From: a bacterium
Lineage (GTDB): Bacteria; Fidelibacterota; Marinisomatia; Marinisomatales; TCS55
Length of the DNA stretch: 64,000 nt
Direction: 5' to 3'
Assembly (NCBI GenBank): GCA_004321715.1
Contig: SGYN01000003.1
Span: 39,645 to 103,644, forward strand
The notes beneath the pieces were generated by a model, which saw only the letters and a program-made list of their open reading frames with translations, searched no databases and was not told where the DNA came from. The translations under genes and the position numbers were made by a program. This document shows positions 3,848 through 29,153 of the stretch, piece by piece; position 1 is the stretch's first letter, and each line of letters begins with the position of its first letter.

Positions 3848-4723
3848 TTATTTATAATCATTGAAACGGCTTTCTATTTCCTGTTTGCTTCTAGTTAGTG
3901 GATTGTCCTGCTCCATTTTTAGGCTTGTTGCTGCTGCAGCCCATTTTGTGGAATCACCAGGACCTAGATTCCGCCGCATATATACGTAGCTTGCTCCACA
4001 GGTGTCTCCCCTTCCACTCCTGCCAATAATTTTATTTAGCTTAAATGGTTCAACAAAAATTTGATTTTTTGCATACACAAGAACACCATCTTTATGGGTG
4101 ATTATAACCTCTTTAGGTCCATAAGACTTTAGGATTTTTGCCGCGGAAACTAAATCTGATTCGCCCGTTAAAAATTTTGCCTCCACCCCATCTGCTTTTA
4201 AATAATGCGTTAGACTAAGTACTTCTTTTTTCTCTTCCCATTCACTATTAATCAGAACATTGTTTGTGTTCCGTGTTCTTATAAACCCTTGAAGGTCCAC
4301 CCCTATCAAAGAGCCTTTCTTTTTAAGATCATATAGAGTAGCAAGCTTAAATTCATCTCTCACAGACGCGTTGATTAAAAAGACTGTTGAATTAATATTC
4401 ATGAACTGTTCTGATGTGAAAGACCCTGCTGATTTAGGCATGATTAGCGATCTATCATCAAAATTATCACTGGGGTATATAAGTTTCATATGAGTTGAAT
4501 TATCAGTGTATGTGGGGAAGACATCAACCCCTATAGATACTAGCTTATCTACAACATGTTGGTCATTATTTTTCAAACGCGTTATTGCTGCTGTTTTTGC
4601 TCCTAAAGCAATAGCAGCATGCGCTCCATAGTTGAACCCTCCCCCATCAACATGTTTAGTCTCATCTGGGGTTACAATAGTATCTTTCGTATAATTCCCA
4701 ATTAAAGTTATATCATACGCCAT
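3848..4723 (-). CDS. PfkB-family sugar/inositol kinase
   Basis: A 291-residue ribokinase-fold (PfkB) kinase. The substrate-binding glycine pair is in 'HVDGGGFNYGAHAA' (about residues 24-37). The C-terminal anion-hole/catalytic motif is 'GRSGRGDTCGAS', with the base Asp at about residue 240. It is short for the family (usually 300-330). The segment 'GVDLQGFIRTRN' recalls the 'VDIQGFIR' stretch I associate with archaeal and plant myo-inositol 3-kinases, so inositol or an inositol catabolite is a possible substrate. In the standard iol pathway the missing step is 5-dehydro-2-deoxygluconate kinase (IolC), and this is the only PfkB gene in the island. Kinase activity is well supported; the substrate is inference. 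It lies between dctM and the gntP-like gene. Confidence 0.8.
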   Translation of the reverse strand: MAYDITLIGNYTKDTIVTPDETKHVDGGGFNYGAHAAIALGAKTAAITRLKNNDQHVVDKLVSIGVDVFPTYTDNSTHMKLIYPSDNFDDRSLIMPKSAGSFTSEQFMNINSTVFLINASVRDEFKLATLYDLKKKGSLIGVDLQGFIRTRNTNNVLINSEWEEKKEVLSLTHYLKADGVEAKFLTGESDLVSAAKILKSYGPKEVIITHKDGVLVYAKNQIFVEPFKLNKIIGRSGRGDTCGASYVYMRRNLGPGDSTKWAAAATSLKMEQDNPLTRSKQEIESRFNDYK

Positions 4724-4762
4724 GATTAATTTTCCATTTCTTGTATATAATTTTAATTTAAT

Positions 4763-6525: not shown

Positions 6526-6560
6526 AAAACTAAGTATTAGATGTTTACCGAGCTTTGTGG

Positions 6561-7571: not shown

Positions 7572-7591
7572 AAAATTATTACTAACATTTT

Positions 7592-8458: not shown

Positions 8459-8484
8459 AGTTATCGCTCCTAATTTTTGTATGT

Positions 8485-9414: not shown

Positions 9415-10152
9415 TTATTTTTCTAAAATAGTTCTTAATTTATTTGCTGATGTATCAGGTTTATCAAATTCCCCAACTAGTTCTCCATTTTTAATAATGA
9501 AAAATTTATCGCCGATCATAAATGCTTGATCTATATTATGTGAAACAAGAATCACATTAATATTTTTATTTTTTAATTGAATTATTTGTTCAACAACTTT
9601 ATTTGACTCTTTCACTCCAAGCGCAGATGTCGGCTCATCAAGAATAAGTATTTTAGCCCCAAAATATAAAGCTCTTGCAATAGCAAGAATCTGACGTTCC
9701 CCACCAGAAAGAGTTCCTGCTGATCTTTTTGGATTATCTATACTGATATCAAATTTTCTTAATTCTTTTTTTGTTGTATCTATTGCAAACTCTTTATCCA
9801 TCATATTAAGGTAATTGTTATGTATTGGTTCATTGCCTAAAAAGAAATTTCGATAAATATTCATAATAGGTATGATTGCTAAGTTTTGATAAACTGTTGA
9901 AATTCCTGCTTCAATTGCTTCCCGTGGATTTGAAAAACTAACTTCATCATCGTTGACTACATACTTCCCCTGATCCGCACGAAAAACTCCAGAAACAATA
10001 TTTACCAGGGTAGACTTTCCTGCGCCATTATCACCTAGAATACAATGGATTTTCCCTGAATTTGTAGACATTGAAATGTTTTTCAATGCATTTATATTTC
10101 CAAAGTTTTTATAAATATTTTTTAGAACTATTTGGTTATTATTAGTAAGCAT
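9415..10152 (-). CDS. Sugar ABC importer ATPase (single-domain RbsA/FrcA type)
   Basis: ATP-binding subunit with all motifs: Walker A 'GDNGAGKST', Q-loop 'TVYQNLA', signature 'LSGGERQ', Walker B 'ILILDEPTSAL' and switch His 'LVSHN'. At about 245 residues it has one ATPase domain, like FrcA, not the tandem pair of RbsA, so it must act as a homodimer. I chose the second ATG (10152), because the track start at 10173 lies well inside the permease gene; 10152 still overlaps the permease end by 11 bases. Together with the permease and binding protein upstream it forms a complete inner-membrane importer, most likely for inositol or a related polyol given the flanking iolG genes (inference). Confidence 0.9.
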   Translation of the reverse strand: MLTNNNQIVLKNIYKNFGNINALKNISMSTNSGKIHCILGDNGAGKSTLVNIVSGVFRADQGKYVVNDDEVSFSNPREAIEAGISTVYQNLAIIPIMNIYRNFFLGNEPIHNNYLNMMDKEFAIDTTKKELRKFDISIDNPKRSAGTLSGGERQILAIARALYFGAKILILDEPTSALGVKESNKVVEQIIQLKNKNINVILVSHNIDQAFMIGDKFFIIKNGELVGEFDKPDTSANKLRTILEK

Positions 10153-11131
10153 ATTTCTTTCTAAAAATGCCATTAACTAAAACTGCTGATATAAGCATAG
10201 CCCCCATAAAAACCTGAAACCAATCTGCGTCAGCACCAGCAAAAATGATTCCCTGTTTAACTATCCCAAAAATTAAAGCACCAATCATTGTCCCAAGGAT
10301 AGACCCATATCCTCCTGTTAATAGCGTTCCACCAATCACAACTGCTATAATAGCAATAAATTCTTTTTGCTCTCCTCTTAATACGTCGGCGCCACCAAAT
10401 GTTGTAATCTGTGTAATCGCAATAAACCAAGCGCAAAAAGCTGTTAGCATAAAAAGAGATGTCCTTACATTATGTACAGGTATGCCCATTAGTTCTGCGC
10501 TTTCCTTAGAAGCCCCCGTGGCAAATATCCAGTTCCCTACTTGACTATGTTTCAATAATAAATACCCAAAAACTCCAAAGAATAACCACCACAAAATTGA
10601 AATAGGAAAATCTGTGCCTGATATTGTAAAGCTATTACTAAAAATAGTGGACATAATACCGTACCCTTTTGATTCTTCTAGTCCACCAACCTGTGTTCTG
10701 CCAGTGATAATTTTAGATACCGCAATTGTAATTCCCCTAATAACAAATAAAGATCCAAGCGTTATAATGAAAGAAGGTAAACCGCTTTTAACTACGGTTA
10801 TACCATTACAATAACCAATGAAGAGCACTATGATCAAAGTCAAAATAGAGGCAAGGGGCATTCCTAAATTAGTTTCTGTAGTAAGTAATGTAACGGACAT
10901 GCCGGAAAACCCTATTAATGATCCTATTGAAAGATCAAATTCTCCACTTATCATTAACAAGGTGACGCCAATTGCAAGAATTCCAATCTCTGATGAAACC
11001 TGAAGATATGATTTGACCCCCTGTACTGATAAAAATCCACTATGCGCAAATATTGCAAAAAACCCCCAAACAAAAATGAGCCCTAAAAAAGCACCCGCCT
11101 CTGGTTTAGAAAGTATTTTTTTTATAGTAAT
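10142..11131 (-). CDS. Sugar ABC importer permease, probable AUU/AUA start
   Basis: RbsC/FrcC-type permease. The track ORF begins at TTG 10960 in the middle of a conserved segment. In the same frame the homologous N-terminus continues upstream ('GILAIGVTLLMISGEFDLS' preceded by a full first helix, 'LIFVWGFFAIFAHSGFLS'). That extension has no ATG, GTG or TTG before the in-frame stop. ATT at 11131 (or ATA at 11134) lies 8 (or 5) bases after an AAGGG Shine-Dalgarno-like sequence and overlaps the stop of the binding-protein gene, so AUU/AUA initiation is the best explanation. The protein would be about 329 residues, normal for the family, with 8-10 helices. It translocates a polyol or sugar. Confidence 0.82.
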   Translation of the reverse strand: MTIKKILSKPEAGAFLGLIFVWGFFAIFAHSGFLSVQGVKSYLQVSSEIGILAIGVTLLMISGEFDLSIGSLIGFSGMSVTLLTTETNLGMPLASILTLIIVLFIGYCNGITVVKSGLPSFIITLGSLFVIRGITIAVSKIITGRTQVGGLEESKGYGIMSTIFSNSFTISGTDFPISILWWLFFGVFGYLLLKHSQVGNWIFATGASKESAELMGIPVHNVRTSLFMLTAFCAWFIAITQITTFGGADVLRGEQKEFIAIIAVVIGGTLLTGGYGSILGTMIGALIFGIVKQGIIFAGADADWFQVFMGAMLISAVLVNGIFRKKYAY

Positions 11132-12105
11132 TATCGTGACCCTTTTTTACTTAGAGCTAAAACTTCTAGCGCATTATCAATATTAATTATGCTTGGCCCT
11201 GTCTCTAGCTTTTTGAAAGCAGGCGTGTTCTTATTGGTTATATATAGGTTCATTAAAACTACTGGTAGATAACCCTGCAAATATTGCTGTTGGTCTAAAG
11301 CAAAAATAATATGACCGCTTAAAATGCCATCAATGATCTGAGGGGTGAAATCGAACGTTGCGAGCTTAATTCTTTTTTGCATATCAATTTCTTTTAATAG
11401 TTTTGCTATTGGTATTGCTCCTAGTGGCCCCAACGCTAATACACCATCAATCTCTTTATTGTAACTAAGAAATGACCTAACCGTTTCTTGGGTCTCTGCT
11501 GGATCTGAGGCATCTATAGGTATTGTTTTAACGAGAACATTGTTTTCTTTTAATACTTTTCTAAATCCTTGTTCTCTTTGATCTAAGCTGATATTACCTA
11601 TTTCATGATTGATACATAGAGCGCTTTTTACATTATGTTTTAACATTTCTTGTCCTGCTTTCAATCCGGCTTCATATTCACTCTGACCTATATAGGTAAG
11701 TATATCGACCTCTTCCATAATTTTACTTCCGGCATTTATCACAATAATTGGAATATTGTTTTTTGATGCAGAGATAACGCTATTTTTAAGAGCTGGAATA
11801 TCTGGAACGGAAAGAATCAAGCCATCTGGATTTGTTGCAATAACAGCATCGATCATTCTTGACATTGTTATCATATCAAAATTTTGTGGAGATTGATATT
11901 GCAAGCTAATTCCAAGTTTTTCAGCGGCATCTTTTGCTCCATTTCGAACTACACTCCAAAAAGGATCAGTTGCCTGCCCATGGGTTATCATTTTTATCGT
12001 AATGTTTTTATCTGATATATTTTGATTACTATTTTCTGAACAACTAAAAAACGCACAGATGAGAAAAGGAAAAAATAGAAATCTAGTAATTTGTTTATGT
12101 ATCAT
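11131..12105 (-). CDS. Sugar/polyol ABC importer substrate-binding lipoprotein
   Basis: A 324-residue periplasmic binding protein of the RbsB/Peripla_BP_4 group. It carries a lipoprotein signal ending 'CAFFSC' (Cys about residue 22), then the paired alpha/beta lobes. Family segments are 'DPFWSVVRNGAKDAAEKLGI', 'NPDGLILSVPD' and 'ITYIGQ'-like 'LTYIGQSEYEAG'. It should deliver a monosaccharide or inositol to the permease. It is encoded 6 bases after iolG, next to its permease and ATPase, which favours an inositol ligand (inference). Membrane anchoring is usual for the many lipoproteins in this genome. Confidence 0.88.
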   Translation of the reverse strand: MIHKQITRFLFFPFLICAFFSCSENSNQNISDKNITIKMITHGQATDPFWSVVRNGAKDAAEKLGISLQYQSPQNFDMITMSRMIDAVIATNPDGLILSVPDIPALKNSVISASKNNIPIIVINAGSKIMEEVDILTYIGQSEYEAGLKAGQEMLKHNVKSALCINHEIGNISLDQREQGFRKVLKENNVLVKTIPIDASDPAETQETVRSFLSYNKEIDGVLALGPLGAIPIAKLLKEIDMQKRIKLATFDFTPQIIDGILSGHIIFALDQQQYLQGYLPVVLMNLYITNKNTPAFKKLETGPSIINIDNALEVLALSKKGSR

Positions 12106-12111
12106 TAATTT

Positions 12112-13104
12112 TTATACCATAATCTGTTTATTATTTAAAAGTGATTCTTTAGCAGCTAGTCCTGATTTTAGCGCATGCAGACTATCGTCAACATTAGCAT
12201 AATCAACTTTCTCCCCTTTTATTGACTTAATAAAGGTTCCCATTTCTTTTTTGTAAGACATCTCATATCGATCAATAAAAAAATTTTTCGGGTTAGCAGA
12301 TTCAAATCCTTTTTCTGTGCCTTTTTGCACCCCATGTAATAATTTATTCCCTACTTTTAATATCCCTTTTGAACCAAGAACCTCAGCTCTCTGGTCGTAT
12401 CCATACGGTGCTTTTCTTGAATTGATAATAGTGGCAAGAACTCCATTTTTAAGGCTCATATTTATAATTGCCGTATCAATATCATTAGCTTTTTCTATTT
12501 CAGGGTCAATAAAACAATTACCCCTTGCATATATTTCAGATATTTCTGAACCTGATAAATATTTGACCATATCAAAATCATGTATAGTCATATCCAAAAA
12601 CATCCCTCCTGATTGTTTAATATAACTTATAGGGGGTGGAGACGGGTCTCTTGAAATTATTTTTATGGTGTGAATATTACCAATGTCCCCAATTGATAAT
12701 GATTTTTTTAAATTAGAAAAATCTGGATCAAATCTTCTATTAAAACCAATATGAAGATTAAGGTCTTTATTATCCACCATTGTTTTAATATCCATAATTT
12801 CATTAACAGATAGCCCCAGTGGTTTTTCACAGAAAATATGTTTTACCTTTTGAGATATTTTTTTTATTTGATCAATGTGAAAATCGGAAGGTGAACAAAT
12901 AACTACACCATCAATATTTTGATTTTCGAAAATATCCTCAAGCTTTTTTGATAATTTTACTTTGATATCACCAAGCTGATTTTCCGAATGTAATATGGGG
13001 TCAATAATCATCTTCAATGTTGCGTCTTTTGCTGATATGATATTATCCGCGTGTATTTTTCCTATCCTACCAAAGCCAACTACTGCTAAATTTATTTTAT
13101 TCAT
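12112..13104 (-). CDS. iolG: Inositol 2-dehydrogenase (Gfo/Idh/MocA)
   Basis: A 330-residue oxidoreductase with N-terminal NAD Rossmann motif 'VVGFGRIGKIHADN', the family 'EKP' signature ('FCEKPLGLS', catalytic Lys about residue 95) and the catalytic Asp/His of 'DMTIHDFDMV'. The stretch 'PYGYDQRAEVLGSKGIL' is characteristic of IolG. It oxidises myo-inositol to 2-keto-myo-inositol (scyllo-inosose), the first step of inositol catabolism, in the cytoplasm. It overlaps the second iolG gene by 8 bases. IolE, IolD, IolB and IolA are encoded in the divergent operon. Confidence 0.9.
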   Translation of the reverse strand: MNKINLAVVGFGRIGKIHADNIISAKDATLKMIIDPILHSENQLGDIKVKLSKKLEDIFENQNIDGVVICSPSDFHIDQIKKISQKVKHIFCEKPLGLSVNEIMDIKTMVDNKDLNLHIGFNRRFDPDFSNLKKSLSIGDIGNIHTIKIISRDPSPPPISYIKQSGGMFLDMTIHDFDMVKYLSGSEISEIYARGNCFIDPEIEKANDIDTAIINMSLKNGVLATIINSRKAPYGYDQRAEVLGSKGILKVGNKLLHGVQKGTEKGFESANPKNFFIDRYEMSYKKEMGTFIKSIKGEKVDYANVDDSLHALKSGLAAKESLLNNKQIMV

Positions 13105-14107
13105 TTTTTACCATTTGTGAACTATTTGTCAGTAAAGACTTTTTACCAGCATCTGCTGCTCTTATCGCTGATAAAATATTTTCTGGTCCAACCTCAGGCT
13201 TTTTGTTGGATGAAATACACTTATAAAAATATTCAAGTTCATTCACATATGATTTTTTATATCTTTCAATAAAAGAGTCTTTAATTTTTGATCTCTGCGT
13301 ATTTTTTTGATTACTTAAGCAATATAAACTTTCTGTTTTATTCTCAACTAAGAGAATGCCCTTTGACCCAAATAGTTCAATTCTCTGATCATAACCATAG
13401 TGTGTTTGTCTTGAACTATCAATTAAACAGAGAATCCCGCTTTCAAGTTCAAGGGTAATTATCGCATTGTCAATATCACCAATATCTTTTAGTTCTGGCT
13501 CAATAAATACGGCCCCATTAACATATATTTCTTTAATCCTTTCTCCGGTTAAGAAGTGTAGCATATCAAAATCATGTATGCATAAATCAAAAAGCATTCC
13601 GCCAGAAGATTTCAAAAATTTCAGCTTAGGTATGGAGGAATCATGGTTTGTAATATGAATTGTGTGAATATCACCGATTATTGCAGCGCCCACCTTTTCT
13701 TTTACCAAAATAAAATCATCATCAAATCTTCTGTTAAACCCAACTTGGACATGTATTTTTTCATTATTAATTGTTTTGATTGTTTCTTCTATTTCTTTCT
13801 CTGAAAAAGAAATTGGTTTTTCACAAAAAACATGTTTTTTATTTTGAGCACACTGTTTAATTAATTCAACATGTGTTGGTGTTGGTGATGAAATAATTAT
13901 TGCATCAATAGACTTACTTGATATTAAATCATTGGCATTTTTAAATAAATCAACCTCACCTACTGATTTGATAAAGTCCATATTGGGGTCTGGATCTGCA
14001 ACACCTTTTAGATTAAGCATTGGAAGGCTATGGTATATATTTTTCGCGTGCATTTTTCCAATTCTACCAAGTCCAATAAGGCCAATATTAATAACTTTTT
14101 TTTTCAT
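13097..14107 (-). CDS. iolG: Second inositol dehydrogenase paralogue
   Basis: A 336-residue paralogue of the neighbouring IolG with the same layout: 'GLIGLGRIGKMHAKN', 'FCEKPISFS', 'FDLCIHDFDML' and 'HYGYDQRIELFGSKGIL'. The Lys, Asp and His expected for catalysis are kept. The two copies are clearly diverged, so they probably act on different inositol stereoisomers (scyllo-, D-chiro- or myo-inositol), as known for paired IolG enzymes in other bacteria; which is which cannot be read here. It overlaps the regulator gene by 4 bases (ATGA) and the other iolG by 8, so all three are translated as a coupled unit. Confidence 0.88.
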   Translation of the reverse strand: MKKKVINIGLIGLGRIGKMHAKNIYHSLPMLNLKGVADPDPNMDFIKSVGEVDLFKNANDLISSKSIDAIIISSPTPTHVELIKQCAQNKKHVFCEKPISFSEKEIEETIKTINNEKIHVQVGFNRRFDDDFILVKEKVGAAIIGDIHTIHITNHDSSIPKLKFLKSSGGMLFDLCIHDFDMLHFLTGERIKEIYVNGAVFIEPELKDIGDIDNAIITLELESGILCLIDSSRQTHYGYDQRIELFGSKGILLVENKTESLYCLSNQKNTQRSKIKDSFIERYKKSYVNELEYFYKCISSNKKPEVGPENILSAIRAADAGKKSLLTNSSQMVKNE

Positions 14108-15186
14108 TGGATTAATCTAACTGAGGATCTTTCAATTAAATTCGAGTTTAGTATAATATTTTTTACATTCATCTTTTCATTATTTATTCTGGATATAATC
14201 AGCTTCATGCTTTCTTGTCCCATTTCATAAATTGGCTGATGCATTGTTGTTAAAGAGATCGTTGTTAGGGGCATATTATCATAACCTACTAAGGAAAAAT
14301 CTTTAGGTACTTCTAAACCAAGATGTTTTGCTCCTGCATAAAATAATAAAGCAATTCTATCGTGTCCCGCATAGACTGCAGTAAACTTTTTTCTGTTTTT
14401 TAAAATTTTATGCACGTGGGTTAGGTATCTATTAACATCAAATGCTTTATCATCTAGAATGGTTATTGATGAGTCTTGATTTACATTAATCTCTTTCATC
14501 TTAGATATAAAACCATCATATCTTAATCTTTCTGTACTATATAATTTGTTGCTTAAAAATGCAATTTTTTCATGACCATTATCAATAAGGTGTTGTGTTA
14601 TTTTGCGTGATCCCTCAAAGTTATTTGTTGTAACAAAATCTAAATTTGAATCCTGGATTCCTCGATCGGCCAAGACAACAGGTATATTTTTTCTTTTTAG
14701 TTTATTAATCACTTCAAGGTTTTGTTTGTCCGTTGCTGCTACAGGGATATATATTATCCCGCTGACTGAAAGTTTAATTAATCTTTCAACATGATATGTT
14801 GCCTGACTCAATTTATCATCCGTATTACATAAAATTAGGCTAATATCATTTTGGTTTGCTTCATCTTCTGCTCCCCTAGCAAGGATTGCGGCATAACCAG
14901 ACCTAATATCAGGTATTAATATTCCAATAGTTGGAATATTTAATAAGTTTCGTTTATTTTTTTTTACGAAAGATCCTACTCGTTTCTTTCTAATAATATA
15001 ACCATCATGCTCAAGGTTTTTTAATGCTTGTCTTACGGTGGCTCTGGATATCCCACTCATTTGCACTAACTCATTTTCTGTTGGTATTTTATCATTAGTA
15101 GCATAGTACCCTTGTTCAATTTTATCCTGTAACCAGGATTGTAATTGGAAATATTTTGGTATAGAACTTTTGTTATTTATAATCAT
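14104..15186 (-). CDS. GntR/LacI hybrid transcriptional regulator (AraR type)
   Basis: A 360-residue regulator with an N-terminal GntR winged helix ('PTENELVQMSGISRATVRQAL', residues about 8-75, cut here across helices) and a C-terminal LacI/periplasmic-binding-type sensor ('IGILIPDIRSGYAAILARGAE' to 'VGYDNMPLTTISLTTM'). This architecture is that of AraR, a ligand-released repressor. The two palindromes between this gene and the divergent TonB receptor closely resemble the AraR operator core (TTGTACGTACAA), supporting the assignment. One operator is only about 20 bases upstream of its own start, implying autoregulation. The likely inducer is inositol or a catabolite (inference). First gene of the minus-strand operon. 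Confidence 0.9.
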   Translation of the reverse strand: MIINNKSSIPKYFQLQSWLQDKIEQGYYATNDKIPTENELVQMSGISRATVRQALKNLEHDGYIIRKKRVGSFVKKNKRNLLNIPTIGILIPDIRSGYAAILARGAEDEANQNDISLILCNTDDKLSQATYHVERLIKLSVSGIIYIPVAATDKQNLEVINKLKRKNIPVVLADRGIQDSNLDFVTTNNFEGSRKITQHLIDNGHEKIAFLSNKLYSTERLRYDGFISKMKEINVNQDSSITILDDKAFDVNRYLTHVHKILKNRKKFTAVYAGHDRIALLFYAGAKHLGLEVPKDFSLVGYDNMPLTTISLTTMHQPIYEMGQESMKLIISRINNEKMNVKNIILNSNLIERSSVRLIQ

Positions 15187-18220: not shown

Positions 18221-18237
18221 TTTTGGCAGTAAAATTG

Positions 18238-18275
18238 ATATAAATATGGGCCTCTTTTGAGACCCATATTTATAT
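18238..18275 (+). terminator. Strong stem-loop after TonB receptor
   Basis: A 17-bp stem with one mismatch and a TTTT loop: ATATAAATATGGGCCTC pairs with GAGACCCATATTTATAT, 17 bases after the receptor stop. No clean U-run follows (TATAATAAG), so it may be a leaky terminator or an RNA-processing/stabilising hairpin that sets the receptor above the downstream enzymes. Confidence 0.65.
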
Positions 18276-18376
18276 AATAAGTTTTATAAAACGAACCACG
18301 TTTTTATATCAAATAACATGTATCGTTAAATAACTCAGTTGTCTAATAATAATTTTAATTTGAGAGGTTGTCTTAA

Positions 18377-19471
18377 GTGAAAACGAACTTTATAACAATT
18401 TTATTTTTTTCAATTTTTATTTTTGTTGCATTAAAATGTGAAAAAAAACATAATACTCTTGAGCCCGATGGAGCAGTATCGGCAATATTTGAAACAGAGC
18501 CCGTTGGTTCGTCTGAAGACACGGCTGATGATCCATGTGTTTGGGTACACCCTACGGATCCATCTTTATCTATTATTATTGGTACAGATAAAGATGAAAA
18601 CTCTCCCGGGTTAAGGGTTTATGATATGAGTGGCAAGCAAATTTATTTTACGACAAATGAAAAAGCAAATAATGTTGATATAAGATATGGTATGGTGCTA
18701 GCTGGAAAAAAAACAGACATTATCACAGCAGGTCTAAGAGTCTCTAATACCTTAGGAGTATATAAAGTAAATCCTGAAAGCAGGACTTTAACTTCTATTT
18801 CAGCAAGAGCAATAAAGCTTGGTATTGAGGTGTATGGATCTTGTATGTATAAGGATGTTTCCACAAATATATTCTATGCAATTGTAAATGATAAAAAAGG
18901 TAACGTTGAACAATATAAATTGTTTGATAATGGTTCAGGGTTAGTTGATGCAGAGTTGGTTAGAACGCTTAAGCTGGGTGGTCAACTTGAAGGTTGTGTT
19001 GCTGATGATATTTTGGGCAACCTGTATATTGGAGAAGAAGAACACGGTATTTGGAAATATGATGCATCGCCAAGTGGGTCAGATAATGGTATTCTTATTG
19101 ATACGATGGGTCCACATATTGCACCAGATGTTGAGGGGCTAACCATTTACTATGCCAATGAATCTTCTGGGTATCTTATTGCCTCAAGCCAAGGTGATGA
19201 TACTTATGTTATTTACACTAGAGAAGGGCAAAATAAATTTATTGGTAGGTTCTCTGTTGTAGATAACAACACTATTGATGGCACAAGCAGTACTGATGGA
19301 ATTGATGTTTGCAATATGAGCCTTGGAGGGCAATTATCAAATGGGGCTTTTATTGTTCAAGATGATGTTAATGATATTGGAAATCAAAATTTTAAAATAA
19401 TATCATGGAATGATATTGCGTCCTTATTTAATCCGCCCCTAGCAGTAAATAATGAGTGGGATATACGATAA
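18377..19471 (+). CDS. Beta-propeller 3-phytase
   Basis: A 364-residue beta-propeller phytase. Family motifs in order: 'DDPCVWVHPTDPS', 'GTDKDENSPGLRVYDMSG', 'NNVDIRYG', 'LEGCVADDILGNLYIGEEE', 'DVEGLTIYY' and 'STDGIDVCN'. The acidic residues are those that bind calcium and the phosphate groups. It removes phosphates from phytate (inositol hexakisphosphate), yielding lower inositol phosphates. Start is GTG at 18377, preceded by GAGAGG. The N-terminus is an export signal ending 'FVALKCEKK'; the Lys before Cys makes it a poor lipobox, so lipoprotein status is unclear. It follows its probable TonB receptor and precedes iolD by 22 bases, linking phytate hydrolysis to inositol breakdown. Confidence 0.92.
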   Translation: MKTNFITILFFSIFIFVALKCEKKHNTLEPDGAVSAIFETEPVGSSEDTADDPCVWVHPTDPSLSIIIGTDKDENSPGLRVYDMSGKQIYFTTNEKANNVDIRYGMVLAGKKTDIITAGLRVSNTLGVYKVNPESRTLTSISARAIKLGIEVYGSCMYKDVSTNIFYAIVNDKKGNVEQYKLFDNGSGLVDAELVRTLKLGGQLEGCVADDILGNLYIGEEEHGIWKYDASPSGSDNGILIDTMGPHIAPDVEGLTIYYANESSGYLIASSQGDDTYVIYTREGQNKFIGRFSVVDNNTIDGTSSTDGIDVCNMSLGGQLSNGAFIVQDDVNDIGNQNFKIISWNDIASLFNPPLAVNNEWDIR

Positions 19472-19493: not shown

Positions 19494-21350
19494 ATGAAAC
19501 TAACAATGGCACAAGCAGTTATTCGTTATTTAAATAACCAGTATATTCAAAGAGATGAAAAAGAAAACAAATTCATTGCTGGTGTCTGGGGTATCTTTGG
19601 CCATGGTAATGTGGCAGGAATTGGCGAAGCGTTAGAGCAGGATAAAAACTTAAAGCATTTTCTACCGAGAAATGAACAGGCAATGGTTCATTCTGCTGTT
19701 GCATATGCAAAGCAAAATAAGCGGATGCAAACTTATGCATGCACAAGTTCTATTGGCCCCGGAGCAACAAATATGATAACCGCAGCCGCAGGAGCAACAA
19801 TTAATAGATTGCCAGTTTTGCTGCTACCTGGAGATATTTTTAGCAGGAGAAATGTTGGCCCTGTATTACAACAGCTCGAATATAATAGATCTCCAGACGT
19901 ATCAGTTAATGATTGTTTTAAGCCTGTAAGTGTTTTTTGGGACAGAATAAATAGACCAGAGCAGATTCTTTTTTCTTTACCTGAGGCGTTTAGAATTTTA
20001 ACTGACCCGGTAGCCACTGGTGCGGTAACCTTATCTCTTCCACAAGATGTTCAGGCGGAAGCATATGATTATCCAGATCATTTTTTTGATAAAAGAATCT
20101 GGGATGTTCCAAGAAACGCGCCTTCTGAAAAAACTATAATTGCAGCAGCAAATATTATTAAAAATTCTTCTAGACCAGTAATAATTGCAGGTGGTGGTGT
20201 TTTGTTTTCCGATGCTGAGAAATCTTTAGCTAAAGTTTGTAACCACACAGGAATTCCTGTTGTAGAGACACAAGCCGGGAAGGGCGCTATACCATGGGAT
20301 CATGACCAGTGTCTTGGCGCTATCGGTGTTACAGGAACAAGTGCAGCCAATATTATTTCTCGTGATGCTGATCTAATCATTTGTATAGGAACAAGGCTAT
20401 CGGATTTTACAACTGCATCTAAAACTCTTTTTCAAAACCCTGATGTTACTTTTCTTAGTATCAATGTATCGCCATTTGATGCCCATAAACATTCTTCTGT
20501 TTCAATAACAGGAGATGCAAGAGAATGTCTTGAAAAACTTTGCGATATATTAGACGCAGGTGGATTTAATATAGCAGATAATTATAAAAATGTAATTAAG
20601 GATCAAAAAGCAAAATGGGATCAAGAAGTAGATAGAATATTTAACTTAAATAATAAACCTGCTATTAGCCAGGGTGAGGTTATTGGAATTCTTTCGAACG
20701 CTATGAATAAAGAGGATACCGTTGTGTGTGCCGCAGGAAGCCTTCCTGGAGATATGCATAAACTTTGGAGAACTGTAAATGGGGATCAATATCATATGGA
20801 GTATGGTTACTCATGCATGGGCTATGAAATTGCTGGTGGACTAGGGATTCGAATGGCAAAAAACAAAGGGGATGTTTTTGTTATGGTTGGTGATGGATCT
20901 TATCTGATGATGAACTCAGAAATCGTAACATCAATACAAGAAAATCAAAAACTCATAATTATCTTGATTAATAATCATGGTTTTGGAAGTATAAATAATT
21001 TATCCCTAAGCCTTGGCAGCCATGGTTTTGGTAACCAATACAGGAAAAGGGAACATCAGACAGGCGCATATACTGGAGATAAATTACCCGTAGATTATGC
21101 AATGCATGCAAGGTCTATGGGCATTAATGGAATAAAAGCACAAACAAAACAAGAGTTTGAATCCGCTCTCAACAAAGCAAAAAAACATGAAGTTTCAACA
21201 TTAATAGAAGTATTGGTTGACCTAAGTATTTCTGTCCCTGGTTATGAAGCATGGTGGGATGTGCCAGTAGCTGAGGTATCCCAATCAAATAAAGTTGTTA
21301 AAGTAAGAAAAGATTATGATCAACAAATTAAACAAGAACGAGATTATTAG
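19494..21350 (+). CDS. iolD: 3D-trihydroxycyclohexane-1,2-dione hydrolase
   Basis: A 618-residue thiamine-diphosphate enzyme with strong IolD similarity: 'GVWGIFGHGNVAGIGEAL', activating Glu in 'PRNEQAMVHSAVA' (Glu61), 'TSSIGPGATNM', and ThDP/metal segment 'GDGSYLMMNSEIVTS' with 'NNHGFGS'. It opens the ring of 3D-(3,5/4)-trihydroxycyclohexane-1,2-dione to 5-deoxy-glucuronate (third step of inositol catabolism, EC 3.7.1.22) in the cytoplasm. Length is normal for IolD. The ATG follows the phytase by 22 bases. The last 35 bases overlap iolE. Confidence 0.95.
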   Translation: MKLTMAQAVIRYLNNQYIQRDEKENKFIAGVWGIFGHGNVAGIGEALEQDKNLKHFLPRNEQAMVHSAVAYAKQNKRMQTYACTSSIGPGATNMITAAAGATINRLPVLLLPGDIFSRRNVGPVLQQLEYNRSPDVSVNDCFKPVSVFWDRINRPEQILFSLPEAFRILTDPVATGAVTLSLPQDVQAEAYDYPDHFFDKRIWDVPRNAPSEKTIIAAANIIKNSSRPVIIAGGGVLFSDAEKSLAKVCNHTGIPVVETQAGKGAIPWDHDQCLGAIGVTGTSAANIISRDADLIICIGTRLSDFTTASKTLFQNPDVTFLSINVSPFDAHKHSSVSITGDARECLEKLCDILDAGGFNIADNYKNVIKDQKAKWDQEVDRIFNLNNKPAISQGEVIGILSNAMNKEDTVVCAAGSLPGDMHKLWRTVNGDQYHMEYGYSCMGYEIAGGLGIRMAKNKGDVFVMVGDGSYLMMNSEIVTSIQENQKLIIILINNHGFGSINNLSLSLGSHGFGNQYRKREHQTGAYTGDKLPVDYAMHARSMGINGIKAQTKQEFESALNKAKKHEVSTLIEVLVDLSISVPGYEAWWDVPVAEVSQSNKVVKVRKDYDQQIKQERDY

Positions 21351-22242
21351 TTCAGGGGATCGTGGGGTTCGTTTTGGCATTGCTCCAATTAATTGGAGCA
21401 ATGATGACATGACAGAATTGGGCGGTCATTATACTTTAGATACAATGCTATCTGAGATGTCTGCGGCTGGTTATGTAGGAACTGAGATAGGAAACAAGTT
21501 TCCTAAAGATTCATTTGGTATTAAAAAAGCACTAACTAATTTTAATTTAGAGCTTGCTTCTTCATGGCACTCTACTTTTTTTTTATCAAACAATATTGAT
21601 TATGAACTTGAAAAAATAAAACATAAATCTATAATGTTACTTGAGGCTGGTGCAAAAATTATAAATCTTGCAGAATGCACTGCTTCTATTCACAGCAAAA
21701 TAAACGCCCCTCTTTCCTTAAAACCTGTATGTGATGAAAAAAACTGGAAGATTCTTACAGAATCTTTGAATCAAGCTGGAGAAATTTGCAATGAAGAAGG
21801 TATTAGTATGGCCTTTCATCATCATATGGGGACATATATTCAAAGTAAAAATGAATTAAATAGATTGTTATCTGATACAGACCCAAAACTTGTTAATCTT
21901 TGTGCAGATACGGGGCATCTATATTTTGCTGGAATTGATCCTATAAATTTCTTCAAAGAAAATATGAACCGAATCAAACACATACACTTTAAAGATCTTA
22001 GAAGTAATATTTTCAACAAAATAAATTTTGATGAAACTTCTTTTTTAAATGCTGTTTTAGAAGGAGTATTTACTGTCCCAGGCGATGGCTGTATAGATTT
22101 TAATTCTATAAGTAAAGTAATTATTGAATCCGATTATAATGGGTGGGTAATTGTTGAAGCTGAGCAAAACCCTGACATCGCAAATCCTTTTGAATACGCA
22201 AGAAAATCAAAACAATATCTTAATAATATTTGGGGTAATTAA
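21316..22242 (+). CDS. iolE: Inosose dehydratase
   Basis: A 308-residue TIM-barrel protein with the IolE signature 'FGIAPINWSNDDMTELGGHY' and 'MLSEMSAAGYVGTEIGNKFP'. Likely metal ligands lie in 'MAFHHHMGTY', 'CADTGHLYFAG', 'HIHFKDLR' and 'VIVEAEQ'. It dehydrates 2-keto-myo-inositol to 3D-(3,5/4)-trihydroxycyclohexane-1,2-dione (EC 4.2.1.44), feeding IolD. The ATG at 21316 lies inside iolD (35-base overlap), so translation is probably coupled. The first 17 residues, before the conserved region, are encoded entirely in or near the overlap. Confidence 0.94.
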   Translation: MINKLNKNEIISSGDRGVRFGIAPINWSNDDMTELGGHYTLDTMLSEMSAAGYVGTEIGNKFPKDSFGIKKALTNFNLELASSWHSTFFLSNNIDYELEKIKHKSIMLLEAGAKIINLAECTASIHSKINAPLSLKPVCDEKNWKILTESLNQAGEICNEEGISMAFHHHMGTYIQSKNELNRLLSDTDPKLVNLCADTGHLYFAGIDPINFFKENMNRIKHIHFKDLRSNIFNKINFDETSFLNAVLEGVFTVPGDGCIDFNSISKVIIESDYNGWVIVEAEQNPDIANPFEYARKSKQYLNNIWGN

Positions 22243-22244
22243 TA

Positions 22245-23303
22245 ATGACGCAAAAAAGCATAATGCAGCAAACAGCCGAATTTGGTTCTGATTGGTGGAA
22301 TGATTCTAATGATCATTTGGAGCTTCAACATGCCTATAAAGAAGGTGCCGTAGGAGCAACTTCAAATCCTGTTATTACGCTCAATAGCGTTAAAAGCCAT
22401 CCAAATATATGGATTCCAGAGATTGATGAAATAATTATAAAGAACCCCACTGCTAGTGAAGATGAAATTGTATGGGTATTAATTGATAAAGTTGGAATAA
22501 AAGCTGCAAATATATTACTCCCTGTATATAAAAATACAAACGGGCAAAAAGGGAAACTGTCTTTACAGGTAAGTCCTAAATATTATCGAAATGCTGATGC
22601 GATGGTTGAGCAAGGAAAATACCTGGCTTCTCTAGCTACCAATATTGCTGTAAAATGCCCAGCTCTTCCTGCTGGAATTATGGCAATGGAAGAATTAACA
22701 GCAATGGGGGTCTCGGTAAATGCAACAGTTTCATTTACTGTTCCTCAGGCTGTTCAAGTTGCTGAAGCTATTGAGCGCGGCCTTGCTAAAGCAGAAAAAG
22801 ATGGAATTAACACAGAAAATATAACGCCCTATATTACTATTATGGTTGGCAGAATTGATGACCACTTAAAAAGGCAACAAAAAGAACATAACATTGATTT
22901 TGATCCAGATCTAATAAATTGGGCTTCGATTGCTATTTTTAAAAATGCTTATTCAATATTTAAAAAGAAGGCTTACAAGTCTAAGCTTTTAGCTGCAGCC
23001 TTTCGCTGTGATTTGCACTGGAAAGAAATTGTTGGTGGAGATGTAATAATTAGTATGCCATACGAATGGTGGAATAGGTTTAATGAGTCAGGCATTGAAG
23101 TAATCGAAAGAATAAATAATCCTGTAGATCCTGAAATTGTGCGTGCCTTGAAGGAGAAATTTGTTGATTTTAACCGTGCTTATAATGAGGATGGAATGAC
23201 GGTTGATGAATTTGAATCTTTTGGCGCAACAATACATACCATGAATACTTTTTTCGATGGCTATGATGAGTTTGTTAAATTAATTCGCAGGCGTATGATT
23301 TAA
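22245..23303 (+). CDS. Transaldolase-family aldolase
   Basis: A 352-residue class I (Schiff-base) aldolase of the transaldolase family. The N-terminal 'GATSNPVITLNSV' matches the transaldolase 'TSNPSI' region. The catalytic Lys is in 'NIAVKCPALPAG' (Lys137), followed by 'VSVNATVSFTVPQAVQVAEA' and 'ITIMVGRIDDH', all conserved family blocks. No IolJ aldolase is present anywhere in the window, while all other iol steps are, and this gene sits between iolE and iolB. I infer that it may cleave 2-deoxy-5-keto-gluconate 6-phosphate to dihydroxyacetone phosphate and malonate semialdehyde. A plain transaldolase is the alternative. It starts 2 bases after iolE. Confidence 0.82.
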   Translation: MTQKSIMQQTAEFGSDWWNDSNDHLELQHAYKEGAVGATSNPVITLNSVKSHPNIWIPEIDEIIIKNPTASEDEIVWVLIDKVGIKAANILLPVYKNTNGQKGKLSLQVSPKYYRNADAMVEQGKYLASLATNIAVKCPALPAGIMAMEELTAMGVSVNATVSFTVPQAVQVAEAIERGLAKAEKDGINTENITPYITIMVGRIDDHLKRQQKEHNIDFDPDLINWASIAIFKNAYSIFKKKAYKSKLLAAAFRCDLHWKEIVGGDVIISMPYEWWNRFNESGIEVIERINNPVDPEIVRALKEKFVDFNRAYNEDGMTVDEFESFGATIHTMNTFFDGYDEFVKLIRRRMI

Positions 23304-23318: not shown

Positions 23319-24083
23319 ATGAGCTTAATTAAACCATTCAGAGGTGGATTTAAAAATGGTATTAATACCTACAAAGACACATATGATCAAACAGGAATAG
23401 ATTTTGACATATTAATTATGGAAAAAGATGAAACCTTTTCAATATGTGAGGCAAAAAATGAGATTGCAGTTATTATAATTCAAGGTAAAGGTGTCTTTCA
23501 TTTTCAAAATGAAGATTCGTATTTCGATCGCGAAAACTGGATTGAGAATGATCCGACAATTGTTCACATGGGTCCAGGTGAAAAAGTTAAAATAAGCGCA
23601 AAAAGACAAAGCAGGGTTGCAATTGTAAAAACAGAAAATCCAAATCAATTCAGTGGAAGTATCTATACAACAGATAAAATAGATACTGAACATAGAGGTA
23701 AAGATCAATTAGATGACACTTGCTATAGATTAGTTCGCCTAGCTTTTGATGATACTATAGCACCTAAAGAGTCAAAATTAGTTATAGGAGAAGTTCTAAA
23801 TTTTCCTGGTAAGTGGAGCAGCTATCCCCCGCACTATCATCCGCAGCCGGAAATATATTACTATGAAATATCTCCATCATGGGGGTATGGACATGGCGAG
23901 CTTGGTGATAATGTGTATAAAATTAAGAATGGTGATGTATTAGCAATAACAAATGGCAAAACACACAGCCAAACATCTGCTCCTGGTTTTCATATGTATT
24001 ATCTTTGGGCAATTAGACATGGTGATAAAAAAAGATATGATGGATTTACCTATATTAAACCATTTGAAAACATGCTGGAGTAA
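23319..24083 (+). CDS. iolB: 5-deoxy-glucuronate isomerase
   Basis: A 254-residue bicupin of the KduI/IolB family. The hallmark 'FPGKWSSYPPHYHPQPEIYYYE' region (here quoted in part as 'YPPHYHPQPEIYYYE') provides the His/Glu metal-binding cluster of the C-terminal cupin, with 'GKTHSQTSAPGFHMYYLW' completing it. It isomerises 5-deoxy-D-glucuronate to 2-deoxy-5-keto-D-gluconate in the cytoplasm. It starts 15 bases after the transaldolase gene with a GGAG-like site before ATG. Length is slightly below the usual 265-275 residues. Confidence 0.94.
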   Translation: MSLIKPFRGGFKNGINTYKDTYDQTGIDFDILIMEKDETFSICEAKNEIAVIIIQGKGVFHFQNEDSYFDRENWIENDPTIVHMGPGEKVKISAKRQSRVAIVKTENPNQFSGSIYTTDKIDTEHRGKDQLDDTCYRLVRLAFDDTIAPKESKLVIGEVLNFPGKWSSYPPHYHPQPEIYYYEISPSWGYGHGELGDNVYKIKNGDVLAITNGKTHSQTSAPGFHMYYLWAIRHGDKKRYDGFTYIKPFENMLE

Positions 24084-24087
24084 AAAG

Positions 24088-25506
24088 TTGAAAACCAACA
24101 TTATATATGTAATTATTTTTTTATTGATTGACAATGTGAGCTCGACAGAAATTGATTATTACTGGTCTGGGGCTGTTACCATAAACACTGGTGTGGTTTC
24201 TGTTGCAACTGATTCTGAAGCAGAAGTCAAAGTTCAGTACAGTGATACAAAAGATTTTAGTAAAAATAATTTATTTTCTAAATTATTCAAAACTAATAGC
24301 GAATCTGATTATTTTACTAAGGTGAAGCTAGAAAACCTAAAACCTAAAACAATTTATTATTATAGGTTTGTTGTTGATGGTATTATAGATAAAAAGCAAG
24401 TTGGAAAATTTAACACACACGGGCCTGGTTCTTTCTCTTATAAAATTGCTCTAGCGACGTGTGCTACAACTGGGTCTAATAGTCCAGTCTTTGATAGAAT
24501 TCGAGAAGAGGATCCTTTGTTTTATTTAATGCTCGGAGACTTTCATTATGGGAATATATATAGAGATTGTGAAGATAATTTTTTAACGTATTTTCGAGCA
24601 ACTCTTGGTTCCAAAAAACAGTCTAAATTATATCAGAACACAGCGATAGCATATATGTGGGACGATCATGATTTTGGCCCTAACAATAGTTCTGGTATTT
24701 CTCCAAATAAAGATGGGCGGGCGGCTTGTCGCCCAGAAGCTTATAAAGCGTACAAGAATTATGTGCCTCATTATGCCCTGGCTTTTAAAGAAGAAGGTGA
24801 AGTTATTTCTCAATCTTTTAATGTCGGTAGGGTAAAGTTTTTATTAACAGATTTAAGATCTCAAAAAAGACGGCCGCTTTTTAATGGGGATTGTTCAAAC
24901 CCAAAGTCTTCAAACTGTAAAAAAGTAAAACAGGGGTCTAACTTTGGAACTGAAGAACATCTTAGATGGTTTAAAAATCAATTATTAGATGCAAAAAATA
25001 ATAATCATGCTGTTGTTTGGCACTCAAGCTTCCCTTATTTAAGTTTGCCAGATTTGAGTTGGTTTAATTGCGACGAAGAAAATACAATTAAAACTGATAC
25101 TGGATATGAGTGTGATGATCATGATAATTGGGGTTGGTATCCAGAAGAAAGAACAGCGATTGCAAACTTTATAAAAGAGCATCAAATACAATTGTGCATC
25201 GTTAGTGGAGATGCGCATATGAGCGCAATTGATGATGGTTCTAATAGTGATTATGCTTCTGGTGGAGGAGCCCCAATACCAATTTTTCATGCTGGGCCCT
25301 TAGATAGAAAGCCGAGTATCAAAGGCGGGCCTTATTCACATGGCGTTAGTGGGCTCCGAGGGCAATATGGAATTATGAAAATTATCGATAGCGGGAGTAA
25401 AGATCTGTGCGTGGAATGGAAAGTAAAAGACTATAAGGGTGAATTTGTTCGCAAAAGCAATGGGGATCTACTCGAGCATTCATTCTGTTTTCAGTTAGAT
25501 AATTAA
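24088..25506 (+). CDS. PhoD-like exported phosphatase/phosphodiesterase
   Basis: PhoD-family metallophosphoesterase, about 472 residues. The track start (23953) lies deep in iolB and would spoil the export signal. TTG at 24088 follows GGAG by 7 bases and gives a good signal peptide, 'MKTNIIYVIIFLLIDNVSS'. After an N-terminal beta-sandwich ('YYYRFVVDG'), the metallophosphatase core shows 'ALATCATTGS', 'LMLGDFHYGN', 'MWDDHDFGPNN', 'VVWHSSFPY' and 'IVSGDAHMSAID'. These are the expected Fe/Ca-binding residues. PhoD enzymes cleave phosphomono- and phosphodiesters outside the cytoplasm. In this operon it may strip remaining phosphates from lower inositol phosphates or glycerophospho-compounds (inference). 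Its stop overlaps the next ATG by one base. Confidence 0.9.
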   Translation: MKTNIIYVIIFLLIDNVSSTEIDYYWSGAVTINTGVVSVATDSEAEVKVQYSDTKDFSKNNLFSKLFKTNSESDYFTKVKLENLKPKTIYYYRFVVDGIIDKKQVGKFNTHGPGSFSYKIALATCATTGSNSPVFDRIREEDPLFYLMLGDFHYGNIYRDCEDNFLTYFRATLGSKKQSKLYQNTAIAYMWDDHDFGPNNSSGISPNKDGRAACRPEAYKAYKNYVPHYALAFKEEGEVISQSFNVGRVKFLLTDLRSQKRRPLFNGDCSNPKSSNCKKVKQGSNFGTEEHLRWFKNQLLDAKNNNHAVVWHSSFPYLSLPDLSWFNCDEENTIKTDTGYECDDHDNWGWYPEERTAIANFIKEHQIQLCIVSGDAHMSAIDDGSNSDYASGGGAPIPIFHAGPLDRKPSIKGGPYSHGVSGLRGQYGIMKIIDSGSKDLCVEWKVKDYKGEFVRKSNGDLLEHSFCFQLDN

Positions 25507-26852
25507 TGTATGTAAAAATACTTAATTTTTTTAAGGCGGGCTCAGATCAGCCCCCTTTAGTTGATGAAAATCAGATAAACAAAAAATATTCTAAATATCG
25601 TAAAGAAGTTCTCGCTTCTATTATAGTTTTATATGGATTTGGTTATACTTGTAGGCTTGCACTATCTGTTGTTAAAAAACCACTTATTGATAATGGTATT
25701 TTTTCTATTATTGATCTTGGGCTAGTTGGCTCTGCTTATTTCTATGGGTATGCCCTGGGAAAATTTATTAATGGGTTTTTAGCTGACTATGCTAATATAA
25801 AAAAGTTTTTTACTTTTGGTTTAATTATATCAGGTGCAATAAATATTTCCATGGGTTTAAACCAGTCTTTACCCTTATGGATTGTATTCTGGTTTTTAAA
25901 TGGCTGGGTTCAAGGAATAGGTGCACCTTCATGTGCAATAGCTCTTACAAATTGGTTTAGTCCGAAAGAAAGAGGGTGGTATTATGGTTTGTGGAGCACA
26001 GCGCACTCTATTGGTGAAGGTCTTACTTTTATTGTTACAGCAGCTTTAGTTGATTATCTATCTTGGCATGCAGGATTTATTGGACCTGGAATCTCTTTAA
26101 TATTGATAACTGCTGTGGGGTATAGGTTTTTACAAGATAGCCCTAGTAGCTTGGGCCTTCCAAGCATTAGCGTTTGGAAAAAAGAGATTGATATAAAAAA
26201 GCTTTCAAATAACTTCAGTGAGGTATTAAAAAATCAATTAAAAATTATTAAATATCCATCTATTTGGATTTTGGGACTAGCAAGTTCAACTATGTATATC
26301 ACTAGATATGCAATAAATAGTTGGGGTATTTTATATTTACAAGAGGCTAGGGGCTATTCTTTGATTGAGGCTGGGGGCTTGGTTGGGTTAAACACTTTTA
26401 CTGGTATTATTGGATGTATTGCATATGGTTTTATATCAGATAAATATTTTAATGCTCGAAGACCTCCTGTTACGTTGATGTTTGGTGTCGCTGAAATCAT
26501 ATCATTGTTTTTAATTTTTTTTGGTCCACAATCAACATTCATATTAACGATCGCCTTTATTATTTATGGATTTACATTAAGCGGGTTGCTTGCGGTTTTG
26601 GGCGGTTTATTTGCTATAGACATAGCTCCCAAAAATATATCTGGCGCCGCTATGGGGTTTATTGGATTGTTTAGTTACATAGGCGCGGGAATACAAGAAA
26701 AGATTAGCAGTGTTTTAATAAAAACATCGCAGTCAGATTTAACTTTAGAGACAATATATAATTTTGATAGCGTAATAATATTTTGGATTTCCGCGTCAAT
26801 TGTATCTTTTTTTCTAGCTTTATCCCTTTGGAATTACAAGACTAAGGATTAA
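25506..26852 (+). CDS. OPA-family organophosphate transporter (GlpT/UhpT-like MFS)
   Basis: A 448-residue, 12-helix major facilitator. It resembles the organophosphate:phosphate antiporters: 'FGYTCRLALSVVKKPLI' in helix 1, 'NGWVQGIGAPSCAIALTNWF' and 'SPKERGWYYGLWSTAHSIGEG' around helices 4-5, and 'YITRYAINSWGILYL' in helix 7. The Arg in helix 1 and the Arg in helix 7 match the two phosphate-binding arginines of GlpT. It therefore probably imports a phosphorylated compound, such as glycerol-3-phosphate or an inositol monophosphate, in exchange for phosphate. ATG overlaps the phosphatase stop (TAATG). Neighbours on both sides are phosphoesterases. Confidence 0.87.
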   Translation: MYVKILNFFKAGSDQPPLVDENQINKKYSKYRKEVLASIIVLYGFGYTCRLALSVVKKPLIDNGIFSIIDLGLVGSAYFYGYALGKFINGFLADYANIKKFFTFGLIISGAINISMGLNQSLPLWIVFWFLNGWVQGIGAPSCAIALTNWFSPKERGWYYGLWSTAHSIGEGLTFIVTAALVDYLSWHAGFIGPGISLILITAVGYRFLQDSPSSLGLPSISVWKKEIDIKKLSNNFSEVLKNQLKIIKYPSIWILGLASSTMYITRYAINSWGILYLQEARGYSLIEAGGLVGLNTFTGIIGCIAYGFISDKYFNARRPPVTLMFGVAEIISLFLIFFGPQSTFILTIAFIIYGFTLSGLLAVLGGLFAIDIAPKNISGAAMGFIGLFSYIGAGIQEKISSVLIKTSQSDLTLETIYNFDSVIIFWISASIVSFFLALSLWNYKTKD

Positions 26853-27671: not shown

Positions 27672-29153
27672 ATGAGCATAATAAAATTCCAAGATTTCCA
27701 AAGCTGTGGAAACTGGATAAACAATGAAACTAAAAAAGACGAAACTCCAGATAGAATAAAAATAATCTCGCCATATTTTGATAAGCAAATTGCTACAGTT
27801 CCTAATTCTGATACTGAGGATGTTAATCAAGCCGTTGAAGCTGCAAGCAGTGCTTTTCTTAATTGGTCTAGAACTAATATTCGCGATAGAGCTCAGATTA
27901 TGTTTCGATTTAAATCAATTATTGAGAGCGATATTCACAACCTTTCATCTATTATTGCTTTAGATAATGGTAAAACAATTGATGATGCTCTGGCGAGCAT
28001 CAAAAGAGGTATAGAGGTAATTGACTTTGCTATCTCTTTGCCAAACATTTTAAAAGGAGAATCATCAGAGGTTAGTCCTGGCATTAATTGCGTTATGACT
28101 CATGAGCCAATTGGTGTTGTAGCGGGCATAACCCCATTTAATTTTCCTGTGATGGTCCCCTTGTGGATGATTCCTTTGGCTATTACAGCAGGAAATACTT
28201 TTATATTAAAACCATCTGAACAAACCCCTCTTGCATCTATAAAGCTTGCAGAATATTTAGAAAAAGCGGGCACACCTAAAGGGGTTTTTAATATTGTTCA
28301 TGGATCAAAAAAAGCAGTCGAAGCTATATGCGATCATCCTCAAATTAAAGCTATTGCATTCGTTGGTTCTTCAAAAGTCGCTGAAATTGTTTATACTCGA
28401 TCAACACAAAAAAAGAAACGATCTATTTGTCTTGGTGGAGCAAAAAACCATATGATTGTTGTTCCTGATGCTGACGTTGAGTCTACCGCTAAAGGGTTGC
28501 TGGCAAGTTCAATGGGCAGCGCCGGACAGCGCTGTATGGCAGCCAGTGTTGCTGTCGGCGTTTCAGATATTGATCATATTATTAGTCAATTAGTTAAAGA
28601 AGCCAAAGAGTATAAGCTTGGTGTAGATATGGGCACAATTATAAGCAAAGTTTCTTTAGATAGAATAACCAATTATATAAATGACGCAGAAAAAATAGGG
28701 GCAAAAATTTTGTTTGATGGAAGAAAAGTATCCATTCCATCTGATTATGAATCTGGCTATTGGATTGGGCCAACAATATTGGATTGTGTTGATCCGAAGT
28801 GGGCATGTGCAACCGAAGAAATATTTGGACCTGTTTTATCAATTATTAGAGCTGAAACCGTAGAAGAGGCAATGATGATTGAAAACAATTCTCAATTTGG
28901 AAATGCTGCATCTGTATTTACTACTTCTGGTGATATAGCAAAAATTGTATCTGATAGCGCATCGTCGGGTATGGTTGGAATTAATATTGGGGTTCCAGTA
29001 CCTAGAGATCCTTTTAGTTTTGGCGGGTGGAATGAATCAAAATATGGGCATGGAGATATTACTGGTATAAGTGGCGTAAACTTTTGGACAAATCTTAAAA
29101 AAACTACTTCACGATGGCCCGAATCATCAGAGGAGTGGAAGAAGTACTTTTAA
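27672..29153 (+). CDS. iolA: Methylmalonate/malonate semialdehyde dehydrogenase (CoA-acylating)
   Basis: A 493-residue aldehyde dehydrogenase of the MmsA/IolA branch. Evidence is 'GVVAGITPFNFPVMVPLWM', the branch-specific 'LGGAKNHMIVVPDAD' (Asn where ordinary ALDHs have Glu), catalytic Cys in 'AGQRCMAASVAVG', and 'SFGGWNESKYGHGDITG'. It converts malonate semialdehyde to acetyl-CoA and CO2, the last step of inositol catabolism; methylmalonate semialdehyde from valine is the alternative substrate. An AGGATG-type site precedes the ATG. Its stop overlaps the convergent glycerate-kinase stop by 4 bases, leaving no room for a separate terminator. Confidence 0.94.
   Translation: MSIIKFQDFQSCGNWINNETKKDETPDRIKIISPYFDKQIATVPNSDTEDVNQAVEAASSAFLNWSRTNIRDRAQIMFRFKSIIESDIHNLSSIIALDNGKTIDDALASIKRGIEVIDFAISLPNILKGESSEVSPGINCVMTHEPIGVVAGITPFNFPVMVPLWMIPLAITAGNTFILKPSEQTPLASIKLAEYLEKAGTPKGVFNIVHGSKKAVEAICDHPQIKAIAFVGSSKVAEIVYTRSTQKKKRSICLGGAKNHMIVVPDADVESTAKGLLASSMGSAGQRCMAASVAVGVSDIDHIISQLVKEAKEYKLGVDMGTIISKVSLDRITNYINDAEKIGAKILFDGRKVSIPSDYESGYWIGPTILDCVDPKWACATEEIFGPVLSIIRAETVEEAMMIENNSQFGNAASVFTTSGDIAKIVSDSASSGMVGINIGVPVPRDPFSFGGWNESKYGHGDITGISGVNFWTNLKKTTSRWPESSEEWKKYF

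Follow-up and report, generated by a model that had tools for sequence, protein, structure and literature searches.

The window, meaning the whole 64,000-nucleotide stretch that was analysed, comes from a bacterium of the phylum Fidelibacterota/Marinimicrobia and carries a set of inositol catabolism genes. Two of these, iolD (19494..21350, +), encoding the diketo-inositol (THcHDO) hydrolase, and iolE (21316..22242, +), encoding inosose dehydratase, exceed their equivalog cut-offs (TIGR04377, 926 bits, cut-off 715, and TIGR04379, 375 bits, cut-off 290, respectively). TAL (22245..23303, +), a proposed 2-deoxy-5-keto-gluconate aldolase, lies 2 bp downstream of iolE as an intact open reading frame of 352 aa with an ATG start. 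It is followed after 15 bp by an iolB-like 5-deoxy-glucuronate isomerase gene (23319..24083, +), which belongs to the KduI/IolB family by Pfam (PF04962, 160 bits) and falls under the NCBIfam IolB equivalog cut-off (TIGR04378, 88 bits against 205). Further downstream is an iolA-like gene for a CoA-acylating (methyl)malonate-semialdehyde dehydrogenase (27672..29153, +; TIGR01722, 514 bits, cut-off 448.5), adjoined by a glycerate kinase gene (29150-30289, -). Inositol catabolic clusters have been defined by an IolBCDE core (PMC9430895), and with at least three of iolB, iolC, iolD and iolE lying together as the criterion, the window contains such a cluster, iolD and iolE being above cut-off and iolB assigned at family level.

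The reverse strand encodes two copies of the inositol 2-dehydrogenase IolG (12112..13104 and 13097..14107; TIGR04380, 389 and 364 bits, cut-off 355), a GntR-type regulator with a LacI-like sensor domain (14104..15186; PF00392, PF13377), and an ABC sugar importer (9415..12105). The importer consists of an ATPase (9415-10173), a permease (10142-10960), and a binding protein (11131-12105), with the roles of these ORFs assigned by inspection, and its homologues adjoin TAL at locus L043. After the iolG and importer genes, the 2498-9378 region (-) encodes GntP-type and TRAP transporters, an isomerase of the AP-endonuclease-2 fold, and a dehydrogenase of the threonate/hydroxyisobutyrate type. The forward strand additionally carries an MFS transporter of the GlpT/UhpC type (25506..26852; PF07690, UhpC-like 263 bits) and a protein that matches GDPD_2 weakly (27014-27655), a 36% identical homologue of which is encoded near TAL in L043.

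The iol genes are flanked by genes for a TonB-dependent receptor and a phytase (together 15329-19471, +) and for a PhoD-like phosphatase (23953..25506, +), the latter assigned from PF09423 and its relatives. The listed start of the phosphatase overlaps iolB, and its homologues, of about 475 aa, begin further downstream. The phytase (18377..19471, +; PF02333, 345.6 bits) is the likely source of inositol, and the receptor, phytase, and phosphatase together suggest a phytate-to-inositol locus.

A distinct subfamily of transaldolase-fold proteins

TAL belongs to the Pfam family TAL_FSA (PF00923, E=4e-41, 141.7 bits, gathering score 27) and carries this domain only, with no domain of the class II FBA family that includes IolJ (PF01116). 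No NCBIfam transaldolase or FSA equivalog is reached at cut-off, the best score being 112 bits against 367 and that for the FSA equivalog 44 bits against 246. When TAL is aligned with TalB and FsaA of E. coli and with ordinary transaldolases from the same phylum, Lys137 coincides with the Schiff-base Lys of the two E. coli enzymes, and this residue is invariant in 15 TAL proteins. The initial annotation of a transaldolase-fold protein with its Schiff-base Lys intact, tightly spaced between iolE and iolB, is thus confirmed. Asp20, Asn41, Asn159, Thr161, and Arg203 are also kept in the alignment, the dihydroxyacetone (DHA)-binding residues being D20, N41, N159, and T161.

Three catalytic positions set TAL apart. 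At position 108, all iol-linked members and FsaA have Gln, whereas TalB (E96) and ordinary homologues have Glu; position 198 is Thr in TAL members and Ser in transaldolases. From work on FSA and TalB, the Glu/Gln site at position 108 is taken here to be the one that separates aldolase from transaldolase, with Gln as the fructose-6-phosphate-aldolase state. Position 200 is Met in TAL members, Phe in transaldolases (TalB Phe178), and Tyr in FsaA (Tyr131). The F178Y exchange turns TalB into an aldolase (PMC3962226). By these residues Gln108 suggests an aldolase mode of action for TAL, yet residue 200, a Met, corresponds to neither the transaldolase Phe nor the FSA Tyr.

An AlphaFold model of TAL (pLDDT 94) finds its top structural matches among type III transaldolases, including those of Corynebacterium (3r5e) and Neisseria (3clm), with TM-scores of about 0.82-0.85. 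Among the matches are PDB entries in which the position equivalent to 108 has been mutated (TalB E96Q, Neisseria E93Q). Type III transaldolases share with TAL the fold, length, Schiff-base Lys, and DHA-binding residues, but identity is only about 21%, Gln108, Met200, and Thr198 replace Glu, Phe, and Ser, and TAL is found in iol operons. FsaA has the acid-base Gln, the Schiff-base Lys, and an equivalent of Arg203 in common with TAL; however, it is 220 aa long, carries Tyr131 in place of Met200, and has no iol linkage. TAL proteins are therefore a distinct subfamily, defined by Gln108, Met200, and Thr198.

Distribution of TAL and absence of IolC and IolJ

The gene order iolD-iolE-TAL-iolB is conserved across the phylum. 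A protein search found six relatives with TAL beside iol genes, and 14 loci were located in named genomes; a search of a phage collection returned nothing. Counting TAL as a strong match (E below 1e-180) and true IolD as an equivalog-level match or a contig-end fragment of one, 14 of 245 phylum genomes carry both, one carries only TAL, two only IolD, and 228 neither (15 with TAL and 16 with true IolD in total). The link between TAL and IolD is far beyond chance (Fisher p about 8e-20, with genomes treated as independent though they are related). In G031, TAL is present on a contig that ends there, and in G152 the contig stops inside iolD. TAL is missing from G203, a 95% complete genome that does encode IolD and IolE. 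In G205 about 17 kb separate TAL from iolD, and TAL there adjoins genes for a GlpT-type MFS transporter and an ABC importer. A 350-aa ORF that follows iolE in G203 and G205 was considered as an aldolase and rejected, as it has no Pfam match.

These data bear on whether TAL is an ordinary pentose-phosphate transaldolase that lies in the operon by chance. Its fold and family would allow this, and TAL is the only PF00923 match in the seven genomes searched for this domain. However, it falls under every transaldolase equivalog cut-off and is not widespread in the phylum but occurs almost exclusively in genomes that encode IolD. Four TAL-bearing genomes (G206, G207, G208, and G210) have an additional, separate hit of the small TalC type, and all TAL members show the Glu to Gln, Phe to Met, and Ser to Thr changes at catalytic positions. 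Given the co-occurrence with IolD, the separate TalC-type genes, and the changed catalytic residues, a housekeeping transaldolase is set aside as very improbable.

According to the initial annotation, every canonical step of the pathway except IolJ had a candidate gene in the window. This premise is wrong, as neither the window nor the organism's own genome, which is 67% complete, yielded an IolC. A Pfam search of this genome gave two PfkB hits, by inspection an RfaE-like protein and another sugar kinase, neither of which reaches the IolC cut-off. Across 19 distinct TAL-bearing genomes, most of which are incomplete MAGs, no intact IolC was found; these are the 15 of the phylum and the genomes of loci L037, L044, L045, and L046, some loci being the same contig. 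The sole match above cut-off (313 bits; L047:1-930, G006:C157) is a 262-aa fragment of an IolC-DUF2090-type fusion family of 586 positions, is separated from the contig end by about 150 bp, and has a higher G+C content than most of its contig. It was judged a chimera, and is probably the product of chimeric assembly. An iolJ elsewhere in the genome, which the initial annotation would have counted against its reading, was not found either: no class II FBA/IolJ-type protein (PF01116) turned up in the own genome (G000) or in five of six relatives, making six of seven TAL-bearing genomes.

A PfkB-family kinase is nevertheless encoded in the window (3848..4723, -). Considered as a diverged IolC it was rejected, as its nearest relative is Thermotoga TM0415 (E about 1e-35 to 1e-37) and it has the GRGD and QGxxR motifs, retaining the inositol-binding QGxxR and the Arg in GRGD. 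Replacement of GAGD by GRGD suggests PPi dependence. TM0415 itself is a PPi-dependent kinase that phosphorylates myo-inositol (PMC5931981). Kinases of this type are linked to iol genes in many Fidelibacterota, in several relatives with the kinase gene upstream of iolG-iolD, and an intermediate of the pathway could be their substrate.

This raises the alternative that a kinase, for example the TM0415-type protein, makes the 6-phosphate and that TAL splits this into DHAP and malonate semialdehyde, in which case IolJ alone would be replaced. The linkage of the kinase gene to iol genes in the window and in relatives agrees with this, as does the view of the TM0415 authors that the true acceptor may be another pathway intermediate (PMC5931981). 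However, the kinase groups with TM0415 rather than IolC and keeps the inositol-binding motif, and the clusters at L044, L045, and L046 have no kinase. TAL also keeps the transaldolase residues around the pocket for the DHA hydroxymethyl group, and transaldolases are not known to take DHAP as a donor. Cleavage of the 6-phosphate is accordingly regarded as unlikely.

Outside the phylum, L045 and L046, labelled Bacteriovoracaceae, encode an AP-endonuclease-2-fold protein, an inositol monophosphatase, IolG, IolB, IolD, IolE, TAL, an ABC importer, and an IolA-like protein. L044, labelled Gammaproteobacteria, has the order MFS sugar transporter-IolG-TAL-IolB-IolD-IolE-IolA. Neither a kinase nor a second aldolase is encoded in these three clusters, L044 starting near a contig end. 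L037 is also labelled Gammaproteobacteria but falls inside the marine Fidelibacterota clade in the sequence tree, and so looks mislabelled. The IolB proteins of TAL clusters form a divergent subfamily, with 35-54% identity between lineages of the group. Those of the window (23319-24083), L044 (3943-4800), and L045 (6439-7251) are 21-26% identical to the IolB of Clavibacter, which is accompanied by IolC.

Clavibacter plasmid pCI3 carries a 45% identical relative of TAL with the same signature inside an iol cluster in which a complete IolC is also encoded, along with an aldolase whose annotation is deoxyribose-phosphate aldolase. As this relative sits beside iolC, replacement of IolC and IolJ is not universal, and the Clavibacter protein may serve a second route or a different substrate. 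Shinella plasmids (L103, L104) carry a 30% identical relative with the same Gln/Met/Thr residues at a non-iol locus, which shows that the signature also occurs outside inositol clusters. Its neighbours are genes of a 2-oxoacid dehydrogenase complex and a triose-phosphate isomerase-like gene.

These relatives, and the possibility that the divergent IolB yields a different intermediate, favour a reading in which TAL acts on another inositol-derived ketose, be it a different product of IolB or an intermediate that derives from a different stereoisomer of inositol. Against this, both IolD and IolE score as standard equivalogs and the pathway continues with IolA, so that malonate semialdehyde is the implied product. 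In L044, no candidate other than TAL is present for the C-C cleavage step that comes after IolB. It is doubtful, therefore, that another ketose is the substrate.

A putative kinase-free pathway

From the gene, its operon, subfamily, and active-site residues, the absence of intact IolC, and the co-occurrence with IolD, we infer the substrate, the reaction, and the fate of the DHA unit. It is judged somewhat more probable than not that TAL cleaves unphosphorylated 2-deoxy-5-keto-gluconate, one enzyme standing in for both IolC and IolJ and performing the C-C cleavage of a kinase-free inositol pathway. In this scheme, IolG, IolE, IolD, and IolB would convert inositol to 2-deoxy-5-keto-D-gluconate. 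Lys137 would form a Schiff base with the C5 ketone of the free acid, the C3-C4 bond would be split, and the resulting malonate semialdehyde would pass to IolA.

In its ketone, hydroxymethyl, and C3/C4 hydroxyls, 2-deoxy-5-keto-D-gluconate shows the same ketose pattern as D-fructose. A Schiff-base enzyme of the DHA type should therefore cleave it between C3 and C4, yielding malonate semialdehyde plus a DHA unit. By established stereochemistry, C3 and C4 of the acid correspond to C4 and C3 of fructose (3S,4R). The phosphate added by IolC would go on the hydroxymethyl end, at the very site where TAL_FSA enzymes hold a DHA unit that bears no phosphate. That IolC is lost while the DHA pocket is kept is therefore consistent with free-acid cleavage, and judged from its residues this pocket appears to fit the free acid better than the 6-phosphate. 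The (3S,4R) configuration is the one made by TAL_FSA-type enzymes (PMC3962226).

Of the initial proposal that a class I enzyme replaces IolJ, the part supported at the genomic level is that the aldolase slot is filled, with TAL linked to IolD and no class II enzyme found in six of seven genomes. The part that is not supported is the restriction to IolJ, as IolC is gone too and the free acid would be the better-fitting substrate.

The DHA unit may be released or may be transferred to an aldehyde phosphate such as glyceraldehyde-3-phosphate, which would give fructose-6-phosphate. Gln108 favours release. The DHA kinase DhaK (PF02733) was absent from the 15 genomes searched for it, which led to its rejection as the missing next enzyme and leaves released DHA without a known sink, favouring hand-over to glyceraldehyde-3-phosphate.

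Relation to known systems

A class I substitute for IolJ is not new in principle, as DUF2090 fused to IolC is a published example (PMC9007349). IolJ (class II) and IolC-DUF2090 (class I), both DKGP aldolases, occupy the same pathway slot as TAL, but they belong to unrelated subfamilies, need IolC, and act on the 6-phosphate. The closer analogue is the sulfofructose transaldolase SqvA/SftT (sulfo-TAL), which cleaves an unphosphorylated anionic ketose without a kinase (PMC9594981). SqvA/SftT differs in its sulfosugar substrate, its subfamily, and its product, 3-sulfolactaldehyde. No publication that ties a transaldolase to the iol pathway, or has one replace IolC and IolJ, was found in the open-access literature searched.

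In one study, eight of 15 inositol users lacked both IolJ and DUF2090 (PMC9007349), a gap that further types of aldolase would help to fill. The core genes used in surveys include IolC (PMC9430895), hence organisms with the TAL variant can be overlooked or counted as having an incomplete pathway. The balance tips slightly towards a non-phosphorylated inositol pathway present in several bacterial phyla, in which a TAL with Gln108, Met200, and Thr198 replaces IolC and IolJ and is paired with a divergent IolB. If this is true, uncultured marine bacteria would possess an inositol route that needs no kinase and skips an ATP-using step, a parallel to the sulfo-TAL pathway, and in the window its genes lie with a phytase gene.
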